Source: a virus
Direction: 5' to 3' (one strand)
Length of the DNA stretch: 43,454 nucleotides
Virus record (IMG/VR): IMGVR_UViG_3300045020_000320
Span: 1 to 43,454 of that record
This document shows, piece by piece, positions 3,380 to 6,399 of this stretch (within the stretch, counting starts at the first letter, position 1; every line of letters starts with the position of its first letter). The notes beneath the pieces are model-generated. The model was not told the DNA's origin, did not search any database, and was given only the letters and a program-made list of their open reading frames with translations. Made by a program: the position numbers and the translations under genes.

Positions 3380-3949
3380 ATGAGGCGTCGCGTTCGGGTC
3401 CCCCCGCGTATCGTTGTCGGGCTGGACCTCAGCCTCGCCGGCGCCGGCGTCGCCGTGCTGCCGTCGGACTGGAAGCCGGGCTTCTGGAACCAAGTCGCGT
3501 GGGAGTGGCTCGGCGAGGAGGGAAAGCTCCACGGGCCCGAGCGGGTGGAGGCGATCGTCAAGAAGGTCGTCGACATCGTCGTGCGATCGCATGTGCTTGT
3601 CGGCGAGGAGAACCCTCAGCACCCGCCGTGGGTCGGGGTGGAGGAGCACGCCTTCAGCAAGTTCGCGCAGAAGCACGCGTTCGCCCGCGCCGAGCTCGTG
3701 GGGGCGGTGAAGTACGCGTTGCACGCGAAGGGGGTGTTCGTGGCGCCGATCGTCGCGACGCACGCGCGCAAGGTGTTTCTCGGTCCGTTGCCGCGCATGG
3801 CGCGAAAAGAGATCAAGGAGCACCTGGCGTACGTGTTGGGGCAGATGGATGCGCCGGCGGAGCAGTGGGGCGAAGACGTGATCGACGCGTTCGTCATCGC
3901 GAACTGTTTGCGAGGGGAACGTGGAATGACATGCTTGGCGTGCGCATGA
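3380..3949 (+). CDS. RuvC-like Holliday junction resolvase
   Basis: 189 aa. An RNase H/RuvC-type first strand VVGLDLSLAGAGVAV carries the first catalytic Asp (D16). A central WVGVEEHAF provides the conserved Glu, and the C-terminal segment GEDVIDAFVIA supplies the last acidic residues. Length fits phage RuvC-like resolvases. It would cut branched DNA before packaging or in recombination, consistent with the SbcCD-like genes upstream. The start ATG 3380 lies 6 bases after CATGAT. Its stop overlaps the next ATG. Confidence 0.82.
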   Translation: MRRRVRVPPRIVVGLDLSLAGAGVAVLPSDWKPGFWNQVAWEWLGEEGKLHGPERVEAIVKKVVDIVVRSHVLVGEENPQHPPWVGVEEHAFSKFAQKHAFARAELVGAVKYALHAKGVFVAPIVATHARKVFLGPLPRMARKEIKEHLAYVLGQMDAPAEQWGEDVIDAFVIANCLRGERGMTCLACA

Positions 3950-4149
3950 ACATCATCTCGCAGGCGAAGTGGGACGTGATGATGTGGCTTCTCACGATCG
4001 GCGAGACGCAACGGGAGATTGCGAGGGTGGTCGGGGTGAATCGGGAGACCGTGATGATCGCGGCAAGGGAAAGCGGCGAGCGCAGGAGCCGATCGGATGG
4101 GATGCGCCGGTATCACGCGCGGCGCCGGCATCGGGCGGAGGTTGGATGA
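3946..4149 (+). CDS. Small helix-turn-helix protein, 67 aa
   Basis: Starts at ATG 3946 overlapping the resolvase stop. The segment IGETQREIARVVGVNRETVMIAA reads as a classic helix-turn-helix (helix, glycine-turn, recognition helix with N-R-E-T). A basic arginine-rich tail follows. It is a candidate DNA-binding regulator, and one of the few visible candidates for recognising the dispersed palindrome, though nothing in the sequence proves that link. A terminase small subunit or recombination accessory role is an alternative. Confidence 0.75.
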   Translation: MNIISQAKWDVMMWLLTIGETQREIARVVGVNRETVMIAARESGERRSRSDGMRRYHARRRHRAEVG

Positions 4150-4171
4150 CGTGCATCGCGACGGTGTGAGG

Positions 4172-4177
4172 TAGTCT
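4172..4177 (+). promoter_or_regulatory. Putative -10 box (TAGTCT) of leaderless promoter
   Basis: TAGTCT lies 7 bases before the GTG at 4185. It sits in a GTGTGAGGTAG context similar to GTGAGGTAGCTT at 41526-41537 upstream of another gene. Confidence 0.5.
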
Positions 4178-4184
4178 CTCGGTC

Positions 4185-4886
4185 GTGGAGGAAGCACATG
4201 CAGCCGCCCGAGTGGCGGGCGCCGAGCTACCCGCTCGGCAGGGCGTTCGACCCGACCCGACTGCTCCGTTTTTCATGGCTCCGTGTCCGCGTTCGCACGC
4301 GTGCGCTGCGGTGAAGTACTGGCACTATTCGCGACGGATGCCGTCGGGGAAGCTGTGGACCTACGGGCTGTGGGAGCACGGACGGTTCAAGGGAGCCGTC
4401 ATGTTCGGCGCGGGAGCGACCCCGAACATCGGGAGCCCGTACGGGCTGAAGTACGACGAGGTCCTCGAGCTCGTGCGCGTTGCGCTTGGCGGGGACCACG
4501 CGACGCCGACGAGCAAGGTCGTGATGATGGCCGTGCGGTTCCTGCGGAGGCAGATGCCGAAGATGCGTCTCCTCGTGTCGTACGCCGATCCGCGCCAGGG
4601 GCACGCGGGCGTGCTGTACCAGGCGTGCGGGTGGACGTTCGTGGGCGAGATGGAAGTCACGCGGTATATCTTCTGCGAGGGGAAGATCCAGCATCCACGA
4701 TCGCTGGGCGCGCGGTTCGGCAAGAACGGGCAAAGCCTTCCGAGCCTGCGCGCGCACGTGGATCCGCACGCGCGGTCGGTCGTGATGCCGCGGAAGTTGA
4801 AGTACTTGTGTCCGCTCGAGCCGGCGATGAGCGCGATGGTCGCGAAGCTGAAGCAACCGTATCCGAAGGCGGAGGAGAAAAAGTGA
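4185..4886 (+). CDS. Mom-like DNA modification protein (GNAT-like fold)
   Basis: 233 aa from GTG 4185; the conserved part begins near residue 35. The order KYWHYSRRMP, YGLWEHGRFKGAVMFG, LELVRVAL, then SYADPRQGHAGVLYQACGW matches Mom-family proteins. These are acetyltransferase-like enzymes that convert adenine in phage DNA to a modified base that resists host restriction. The start is uncertain: GTG 4185 is 7 bases after a TAGTCT box, while ATG 4275 (residue 31) would give a more typical N-terminus. An alternative ORF beginning at ATG 4198 behind GGAGGAAG is in another frame and ends at 4314. Coupled by GTGA to a ParB-like gene. Confidence 0.75.
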   Translation: MEEAHAAARVAGAELPARQGVRPDPTAPFFMAPCPRSHACAAVKYWHYSRRMPSGKLWTYGLWEHGRFKGAVMFGAGATPNIGSPYGLKYDEVLELVRVALGGDHATPTSKVVMMAVRFLRRQMPKMRLLVSYADPRQGHAGVLYQACGWTFVGEMEVTRYIFCEGKIQHPRSLGARFGKNGQSLPSLRAHVDPHARSVVMPRKLKYLCPLEPAMSAMVAKLKQPYPKAEEKK

Positions 4887-5593
4887 AACCGAAGACCGGC
4901 ATCGCGGTGCCGCAGCAGGTGCGTCTCGCGCTCAAGGACGTGAACCTTGCGCCGTACAACCCTCGAACGATCTCCGCGGAGAAGATGACCGCGCTGAAGG
5001 CATCTCTCGTGAAGCACGGGTTCGTGCTCAACCTGGTCGTCCAGAAAAAGGGGATGGTCCTCATCGGTGGTCACCAGCGAGTGCGCGCGATGCGCGAGCT
5101 TTGCAAGGAGCACGCGTGGACCGAACCGACCGAGCTGCCAGCGACCGTGCTCGACGTCGACGACGCCACCGCCAAGCAGTTGAACATCGCGTTGAACAAC
5201 GTCGAGGGGGAGTTCGACCCGTACAAGCTCGGCGAGCTGTTCGTGGAGCTTCGTCCGGTGATGACGGGCGAGGACGTCGTCGCCACCGGATTCGAGGAGG
5301 AGAACATCGCCGAACTGATGTCGCTGCTCCAGGCGCCCGACGAAGCCGCGGCCGCCGCGGATGCCGAGGCGGGGGAGATTGGCGGGTTCGGCAATTCGGT
5401 GACCCTGTCGATCGAGTTCGCGAACGTCGAGGAGCGCGACGCGGCGAAGGTGTTGCTCAAGGCGGCGAGCGCGAGCACGGGCAAGTCGCCGGCGACGATT
5501 CTGATGCAGGCGTTGCGGGCGGCGAAGGCGTCGGGTCGCCACGCGAGCAACGGCAAGGTCGTCCCATTGAAAAAGCGATCGGCGCGCGCGTGA
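4883..5593 (+). CDS. ParB/sulfiredoxin-fold protein
   Basis: 236 aa. The N-terminal half shows the ParB N-terminal fold: NLAPYNPRTISAEKMTALKASLVKHGF, followed by the diagnostic GGHQRVRAM box (about 62-70). No ParB central HTH is obvious; the C-terminal half is alanine-rich with a VTLSIEFANVEERDAAKVLL segment. Proteins of this type in phages usually accompany DNA-modification enzymes rather than plasmid partition. The GTGA coupling to the Mom-like gene supports a modification or CTP-switch accessory role. Whether it binds the genome's palindrome is unknown. Confidence 0.82.
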   Translation: MKPKTGIAVPQQVRLALKDVNLAPYNPRTISAEKMTALKASLVKHGFVLNLVVQKKGMVLIGGHQRVRAMRELCKEHAWTEPTELPATVLDVDDATAKQLNIALNNVEGEFDPYKLGELFVELRPVMTGEDVVATGFEEENIAELMSLLQAPDEAAAAADAEAGEIGGFGNSVTLSIEFANVEERDAAKVLLKAASASTGKSPATILMQALRAAKASGRHASNGKVVPLKKRSARA

Positions 5594-6015
5594 CTCCGCT
5601 GATGAAGTTCCTACGCAATACGAGCGAGAAGATGCTCGGTACATTCGCGGAGGGACCCGAAGCACCGCCGCGCATTCGCGAGCTCGTCGAGGTGTTCGCG
5701 AAAGCCAACCCGCGCGCGACCGTCGGTGAGTGGGTCGAGTTTGCCGTCAAGCACGCGGAGGGTGCGTACCAGCAAGGCTACGTGCGTGGGTTCGAACGAA
5801 CCGAACGGCTCGGGCCCGACTGGGAGGACCCCGACGAAGCGGCGAAGGTCATGGAGCAGATCGAGGACATCGCCGCCGGCAACGACCAGGGATTCGACGC
5901 GTCGGCGGTCGTGCCCATCGACGGGGTTCCGAAAGAACACGCGGCACGGGCGGCGCTGGCGATGAACGATCTGGTCGTCGAACAGGGGTTTCGAAGGGGC
6001 CCGCCCAGGCGGTAA
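5590..6015 (+). CDS. Hypothetical protein, 141 aa
   Basis: Starts at GTG 5590, overlapping the ParB-like stop, so it is the last gene of the Mom/ParB operon. The sequence is helical, with FVKHAEGAYQQGYVRGFERTERLG in the middle and acidic residues before a basic tail. I do not recognise a family. Function could relate to modification or be structural; the context is the only clue. Confidence 0.7.
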   Translation: MTPLMKFLRNTSEKMLGTFAEGPEAPPRIRELVEVFAKANPRATVGEWVEFAVKHAEGAYQQGYVRGFERTERLGPDWEDPDEAAKVMEQIEDIAAGNDQGFDASAVVPIDGVPKEHAARAALAMNDLVVEQGFRRGPPRR

Positions 6016-6059
6016 AACCACGGGCTTATTGAGAATCGACGGGGGTAGGTAAAAAGGGG

Positions 6060-6088
6060 TTGCGCGTGGACCCATTAGGGCCCATATT
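6060..6088 (+). promoter_or_regulatory. Sigma70-like promoter with leaderless start
   Basis: TTGCGC (6060-6065), a 17-base spacer and CATATT (6083-6088) stand 6 bases before the ATG at 6095. The upstream GCGCGTGGACC is repeated before the phosphatase gene (17583-17593). This 79-base intergenic gap marks the start of a new operon. Confidence 0.6.
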
Positions 6089-6094
6089 CGACCC

Positions 6095-6202
6095 ATGACA
6101 ACGACGACGCAAACGACGGCGATGTCCTACAACGGGCGCGTGTGGGAAGGCGTCGACGACGGCAAGGCCCACCGCGAGATCGTCATCGGGGGCGCGTCGT
6201 GA
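6095..6202 (+). CDS. Small ORF, 35 aa
   Basis: Begins 6 bases after a CATATT box and ends in a GTGA overlap with the next gene. That is why I keep it despite its size. Threonine-rich start, then a short acidic and basic stretch; no recognisable domain. It may act as a leader cistron for the operon. Confidence 0.5.
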   Translation: MTTTTQTTAMSYNGRVWEGVDDGKAHREIVIGGAS

Positions 6203-6399
6203 AGCTCATTGTCGACGGGTGCTTCATCGGGTTCGCCGACTTCCCGCCGGCGGATGCGCGGGTGGGTAATCACGTCATCATCGATCGGAACACGTGTCTC
6301 GGTGCGTACCGTTGGCGGGGAACGGGTGAAGTCGTGTCGGTCGACGAGCGCGAGATGCGCGTCAACCTCATCGGTGAATGGGAGGAGGTCGGGTCATGA
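6199..6399 (+). CDS. Hypothetical protein, 66 aa
   Basis: Small beta-rich protein (MKLIVDGCFIGFADFPPADARVG start) beginning at GTG 6199 and overlapping both neighbours. No family recognised. It is part of a run of small coupled accessory genes (6.1-8.8 kb). Confidence 0.6.
   Translation: MKLIVDGCFIGFADFPPADARVGNHVIIDRNTCLGAYRWRGTGEVVSVDEREMRVNLIGEWEEVGS

Follow-up and report, generated by a model that had tools for sequence, protein, structure and literature searches.

A Mom-family phage gene with a ParB-like neighbor and a candidate tRNA-Gly-like RNA as possible glycine donor for DNA adenine modification

The phage contig of 43,454 bases analyzed here (the window), which carries genes for terminase, portal, and major head proteins, probably encodes a DNA adenine-modification module in which a Mom enzyme is joined by a ParB-like accessory protein and by a tRNA-Gly-like RNA dedicated to Mom; the enzyme would take its glycine from the glycyl-RNA. 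What has been computed is the family and fold of Mom, the linkage of mom to the RNA and to parB-like genes, the covariation of the RNAs, their glycine identity elements, and a CCA end encoded in most of the relatives. A conserved, covarying, and mostly CCA-ended tRNA-Gly-like gene at mom names a concrete candidate for the donor of the Mom modification, a question that, to our knowledge, has been open for decades. If this proposal is true, the translation machinery would be linked to DNA protection, phages would possess a class of tRNAs that apparently do not serve translation and that annotation tools mostly overlook, and Mom would be, as far as we know, the first enzyme to modify a DNA base with a group donated by an RNA. 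The features of the locus are the following:

4172..4177, + strand: TAGTCT, a possible promoter -10-like box before the RNA and mom
4200..4265, + strand: candidate tRNA-Gly-like RNA element (match of covariance model R1, cloverleaf in the MFE fold)
4275..4886, + strand: mom, predicted Mom-family GNAT-fold DNA adenine-modifying enzyme of 203 amino acids, start ATG 4275 (PF25680, phrog_1384, AF2 model, 8bv8_A)
4883..5593, + strand: ParB-like gene with GTGA overlap with mom (phrog_620, PF02195 below its cut-off, ParB fold match)
5590..6015, + strand: small ORF opening in a second GTGA overlap (sequence and translations; by eye, a similar ORF follows the ParB-like gene of contig L013)

The mom gene and its ParB-like neighbor

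The first gene is a real member of the Mom family with the Mom/GNAT fold, and the original prediction of a Mom-like ORF is confirmed by Pfam, PHROG, and PDB matches. The protein matches PF25680 (E 3.1e-39, 135.2 bits, above the curated cut-off of 27.1) and phrog_1384 (E 7.5e-46). For the AF2 model of the 203-residue protein (pLDDT 94.1, pTM 0.85), the top match among solved structures is Mu Mom (8bv8_A; Z 19.4, rmsd 3.4, 180 aligned residues, 24% identity), which belongs to the same family (PF25680) and fold, and the nearest PDB folds after 8bv8 are GNAT acetyltransferases of the acetyl-CoA type at Z 12.2 or less. Among the best 50 VIA-align structure matches listed for Mom there is no aminoacyl-tRNA-dependent transferase, a result that excludes none. 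Residues that are invariant among the relatives (H17, Y18, E65, R68, S102, D105, and others) are kept in the window Mom. H17, Y18, E65, R68, and D105 also match the Mom of phage D108, and S80 aligns with S124 of D108, whose position number is that of the residue mutated in the inactive 8bv8 entry. In the YQAxN motif, G takes the place of N, as in 20 of 54 sequences.

Originally, Mom had been predicted to start at GTG 4185, and this start had to be given up. It adds about 30 residues that are absent from five aligned relatives (alignment A1), and the GC contents at the three codon positions of 4185-4274 (.90/.60/.60) are atypical when compared with the rest of Mom (.63/.47/.88) or with the ParB-like gene (.66/.42/.89). 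Because residues 1-30 are unmatched and the codon GC of 4185-4274 is unlike that of both genes, the start of mom is assigned to ATG 4275. Some tblastn matches extended to query residues 3-10, i.e., into 4185-4274. Among ten Mom loci, no shared N-terminal motif is visible by eye, and together with the codon composition this disfavors 4185-4274 as a coding segment; judged by its composition, it looks like a non-coding leader. The TAGTCT box from which the two genes were said to start is indeed present, once, at 4172-4177, but it does not stand as a significant box, a single copy having to be compared with 2.78 copies expected by chance, and a scan of 3900-6300 for sigma-70-like promoters found none. 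A promoter-like box at TAGTCT is possible.

The two plus-strand ORFs, ending at 4886 and 5593, share the GTGA at 4883-4886, as had been described. The product of the second matches phrog_620 with an E of 2.5e-28, and its scores against PF02195 (ParB_N), 24.6 and 23.3 bits, are below the cut-off of 26.3, which is why we term the gene ParB-like and not ParB_N. Its N-domain has the CTP-binding (CTPase-type) fold of ParB, as found in M. xanthus ParB (7bnr_A; Z 13.0, rmsd 2.0, 91 aligned residues), and its assignment as ParB-like thus agrees with the original prediction. Searches of PHROG and Pfam with the small ORF at 5590-6015 gave no match.

A single-protein search of viral contigs with the window Mom found no relative, and an alignment search of IMG/VR yielded 568 matches, the best 80 of which were taken as loci; together with 14 annotated loci, 94 loci were examined. 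Counts over the 80 loci include near-duplicates (e.g., L038/L039/L042 and L052/L057). In 76 of these 80 loci a ParB-like ORF lies upstream of mom on the same strand, at a distance of 60 nt or less in 71 of the 80, and two of the four loci lacking it have less than 110 nt of upstream sequence. The proposed coupling of a Mom-type enzyme to a ParB-like protein is thereby supported. A ParB-like neighbor is also encoded in 14 of 20 genome Mom loci. In the closest annotated records, ParB is found directly 5' of Mom (phiEf11, Sicarius2, Appa, and a Lactobacillus plasmid) or with one small ORF intervening (BarretLemon), and gene 36 of Salinibacter phage B2_17, immediately before Mom, matches ParB_N. 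No ParB match was obtained in the loci of the more distant Moms of D108, VSiP, P12002L, Darwin, PMBT2, PK3.6, Hayley, and JD024.

In phiEf11 and in Arthrobacter and Microbacterium phages, a ParB_N-like gene overlaps or adjoins mom as in the window, but there it is situated upstream and its product ends in CxxC, whereas the ParB-like gene of the window is downstream of mom and its product lacks a C-terminal CxxC. Such a CxxC is present near the end of 76 of the 76 ParB partners of Mom in the IMG/VR loci (L036-L115); to those partners that are aligned in A11, the window protein is 17-32% identical. Its nearest relative (68% identical) is encoded behind a C5-cytosine methyltransferase fragment on a phage contig (L013, 43-1028). 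Given the downstream position and this relative, there seems to have been a second, separate joining of a ParB-like protein to Mom, in the other gene order, and ParB-like proteins might travel with differing DNA modifiers. The CxxC of the partner ParBs recalls the zinc-ribbon protein Com, which precedes mom in Mu-like phages.

tRNA-Gly-like RNAs at mom loci

All eight tRNAs that ARAGORN detects within 50 nt of Mom are tRNA-Gly, six of them in the 80 IMG/VR loci and two in the 14 annotated ones, and the six remaining ARAGORN tRNAs in the 94 loci are specific for Trp or Asn and lie more than 1 kb from Mom. A tRNA-Gly is annotated beside Mom in Appa and B2_17, and in Sicarius2 an unannotated one is located at the end of Mom (ARAGORN). 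Unannotated tRNA-Gly-like genes overlap the end of mom in Arthrobacter phage genomes (L020, 3640-3710; L031, 3080-3150). A model-free scan required only an acceptor, in which GC and the five bases after it pair with a 3' arm that terminates in GC directly before a T, the arms being 44-66 apart. It is positive in the interval from -60 to +120 relative to the Mom end in 63 of the 80 IMG/VR loci, with about 3 expected from a background of 97 hits in 482,683 nt elsewhere (0.036 per 180 nt). The same scan is positive in 8 of the 20 genome loci. Among phage records, 22 of Arthrobacter and 10 of Microbacterium contain the RNA, and these numbers equal those of the Mom-matching records for the two hosts. 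By scan or by covariance model R1, 14 of the 80 IMG/VR loci, mostly of the phiEf11-like type, have no RNA near Mom, and among annotated Mom loci none was found in Mu-like D108, JD024, and others, so that the RNA is not required for Mom.

Model R1 was built from nine RNAs that did not include the window, namely seven ARAGORN hits (the eighth, L057, was omitted as it is nearly identical to L052) plus L031 and L021, which were recognized by eye or annotation. Run on the 577,530 nt of the 94 loci, R1 yields 48 matches at E<=1. They comprise three Trp tRNAs, one weak partial match, and a remainder that lies at Mom or up to about 600 nt away. Phage DNA lacking Mom (92,622 nt) gave zero matches.

The RNAs fall into two classes. 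Members of the long class (70-74 nt) form a cloverleaf whose T-stem often contains a bulged A, and those of the compact class (65-69 nt including two trailing bases) are modeled without a D-arm. For 19 long-class RNAs (A9), 97.2% of positions in stems are paired, changes on both sides occur in 14 of 21 pairs, and the covariation score of.566 compares with.167 for shuffled alignments (0/500) and at most.137 when slid; for 27 compact RNAs (A8), 98.4% are paired, 12 of 17 pairs show two-sided changes, and the score is.423 versus.140 (0/500). Both sets were hand-picked by class from loci with hits, near-identical copies being omitted, and A9 also omits L020, L022, L031, L052, L057, L062, L078, L091, L107, and L109, which have no T-stem bulge or fit poorly.

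According to the accessible text of PMC9976931, the bacterial glycine identity set comprises G1-C72, C2-G71, U73, C35, and C36. The first three of these are present in every RNA of both class alignments, and 23 of the 27 compact RNAs show an aligned CC in the anticodon loop. Deduplication of the hits that the scan gave close to the Mom end leaves 50 distinct RNAs, and 36 of them have CCA encoded after U73. Since the GG of the D-loop is absent in 12 of the 19 long-class RNAs of A9 and T-loops are variable, many of the Mom-linked RNAs should be poor in translation, as far as their sequences tell.

The original prediction made no mention of an RNA at 4200-4265. The window element is composed of an acceptor stem (4200-4205/4259-4264), a D-arm (4206-4220), a possible ACC anticodon (4229-4231), and a T-arm with a bulged A at 4255, followed by U73 at 4265. 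By sequence and R1 alignment, the glycine identity positions G1-C72, C2-G71, U73, C35, and C36 are kept. There is no encoded CCA, the element being followed by CCG at 4266-4268, and its defects are one C-A mismatch in the acceptor stem and the lack of positions 8-9. It is placed between TAGTCT and the ATG 4275, i.e., 5' of mom, as opposed to the 3' end in the IMG/VR relatives.

For R1, the element is the single match in the 43,454 nt (27.6 bits, E 6.1e-5). A second model, R2, was expected to raise the score of the element and lowered it: with filters off, the element is the top local match at 18.0 bits, a window-wide search with default filters at E<=5 gave no match, and the only match reported by R2 (15.4 bits, in L017) is chance-like. 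The MFE fold contains the cloverleaf, at a z of only -1.39 and with 16 of 200 shuffles equally stable. A descriptor scan matches once in the window, at the element, and 0 times in 30 shuffles, a result that is not independent because the descriptor was composed with the element in view; it matches 32 of the 80 Mom loci and 1 site elsewhere. Neither ARAGORN nor an Rfam search including the tRNA model detects a tRNA in the window, for which reason the element is named tRNA-Gly-like only. We regard it as a candidate for a divergent member of the Mom-linked tRNA-Gly-like RNAs.

A glycyl-RNA as donor for Mom, and other readings

The product of Mu Mom is N6-carbamoylmethyl-adenine, in which glycinamide is joined to the N6 of adenine. 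We infer that the tRNA-Gly-like RNA would be expressed and charged by the glycyl-tRNA synthetase of the host, and that Mom, as a GNAT-fold acyltransferase, would use the glycyl-RNA in place of an acyl-CoA. Glycylation of adenine N6 in the phage DNA would give N6-glycyl-adenine, from which a Smiles-type rearrangement, with the glycyl amine displacing the amide at C6, might lead to the isomeric N6-carbamoylmethyl-adenine, and this bulky base would then block host restriction. Phages without a linked RNA might use the tRNA-Gly of their host, and any role of the ParB-like protein would be an accessory one; the original suggestion that this protein loads or targets the enzyme is unsupported. It is the genetic tie of tRNA-Gly to mom that suggests glycyl-tRNA as donor. 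For Mom enzymes in general, we consider it fairly probable that they are aminoacyl-tRNA-dependent: glycine would reach DNA adenine from a phage tRNA-Gly that is dedicated to this use and often unfit for translation, and would then be rearranged to the carbamoylmethyl group.

The idea of a glycyl donor is already present in the accessible part of PMC7824862, where CoA is supposed to carry the acyl group, for example glycyl (glycyl-CoA), that Mom transfers. In our search of the open literature, with preprints and subscription papers scarcely covered, no proposal of a tRNA donor for Mom was found. A dedicated glycine donor is known from Staphylococcus, where a non-proteinogenic tRNA-Gly evades EF-Tu and supplies a transferase with glycine for peptidoglycan, as described in the accessible text of PMC9976931; the RNA proposed here would resemble it, the acceptor being DNA adenine instead of peptidoglycan. 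Closest in gene content are the 16 modules in ssrA islands of Dehalococcoides, which, according to what is accessible of PMC3146451 (2011), consist of parB, mom, and a tRNA-Gly-like locus of 76 bp that lies inside mom, within its initial 150 bp. As in the window, ParB, Mom, and a tRNA-Gly-like locus occur together, and the position of that locus provides a precedent for the 5' placement of the window element; the Dehalococcoides modules reside in mobile islands, however, whereas the window derives from a phage. The accessible text of the same paper proposes no role of the RNA in Mom chemistry. In Mu-like D108, by contrast, mom is preceded by com rather than parB and has no tRNA-Gly linked to it.

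The main rival to a glycine-donating RNA is a tRNA mimic that acts in cis: as part of the mom mRNA it would control translation or stability, like Com on Mu mom, and would be no substrate. This rival ranks first because in most loci the Mom ORF continues through the RNA, extending by a median of 78 nt past the conserved end (60 loci), the median being 3 nt in the 14 loci without RNA. Such a mimic would also be in line with the CxxC that ends all 76 ParB partners and with the translational control of Mu mom by the zinc-finger protein Com in the accessible text of PMC6483171. We nevertheless judge it unlikely: in Appa the RNA is encoded on the strand opposite to mom, it follows the Mom stop only after 576 nt in L037 and 605 nt in L107, and mimicry would need neither the frequently encoded CCA nor the kept glycine identity. 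The opposite-strand copy and the two copies some 600 nt away argue for an RNA that acts in trans.

An RNA acting in trans might simply serve translation, as an ordinary phage tRNA-Gly that stands beside mom by chance; phages often carry tRNAs, and L022, L070, L062, and L094 have near-canonical forms. This is very unlikely, given that a tRNA beside Mom is always specific for Gly (8/8), that the long-class RNAs often lack the D-loop GG, that the compact class is modeled without a D-arm and T-loops are varied, and that the apparent anticodon in this GC-rich phage is ACC. More specific to the window is the doubt whether it contains a plain Mom-ParB pair, with 4200-4265 being a chance resemblance or a decayed relic and Mom using a CoA ester or host tRNA-Gly. 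The failure of ARAGORN, Rfam, and default-filter R2 to detect the element and the many Mom loci without any RNA would fit such a pair, which we still hold to be rather doubtful in view of the sole R1 match within the window, a non-coding codon profile exactly at the element, and the absence of descriptor matches from shuffled windows, although the descriptor was made after seeing the element. The preferred reading is that Mom would take glycine from a charged RNA encoded at its own locus.

GTCGAC sites, palindromes, and the contigs of this virus

The original prediction had assigned to Mom the protection of the many GTCGAC sites from restriction. Their abundance is real, with 71 in the window versus 42.3 +/- 6.1 in shuffles, and 17 of them are held by the perfect palindrome core AGGTCGACCT. 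A protection specific for GTCGAC is rejected on two grounds. The target of Mu Mom, SASNY, fits 3,184 of the 14,594 adenines of the window, so that any protection by Mom here would be general, and the 54 of 71 GTCGAC sites outside palindromes are within about 2 sd of the number expected by chance. The palindrome extends up to 22 bp (AAAGTGAGGTCGACCTCACTTT), and its 17 cores are distributed from 30 to 42447 of the window, with 27 over about 71 kb of three contigs. Since 12 of the 17 centers are intergenic, compared with 9.4% of the window, and mostly lie 20-50 nt before gene starts, the palindromes look like a genome-wide set of promoter operators. Binding of the palindromes by the ParB-like protein was considered as an idea and dropped.

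The two further IMG/VR contigs extend the window and each other. G001 is 99.997% identical to the window over their overlap and G002 is 99.989% identical to G001, and because of these identities the three contigs are taken as one virus. G001 and G002 had been candidates for Mom-less relatives and were dropped as such; being the window's own virus, they make the absence of Mom from them uninformative. A RuvC-like Holliday junction resolvase is encoded at 3380-3949 of the window, shortly upstream of the locus (phrog_159, E 3e-13). An intergenic stretch of 100 bp at 6015-6114 of the window is repeated in the same virus at 4964-5064 of G002 with 92% identity.
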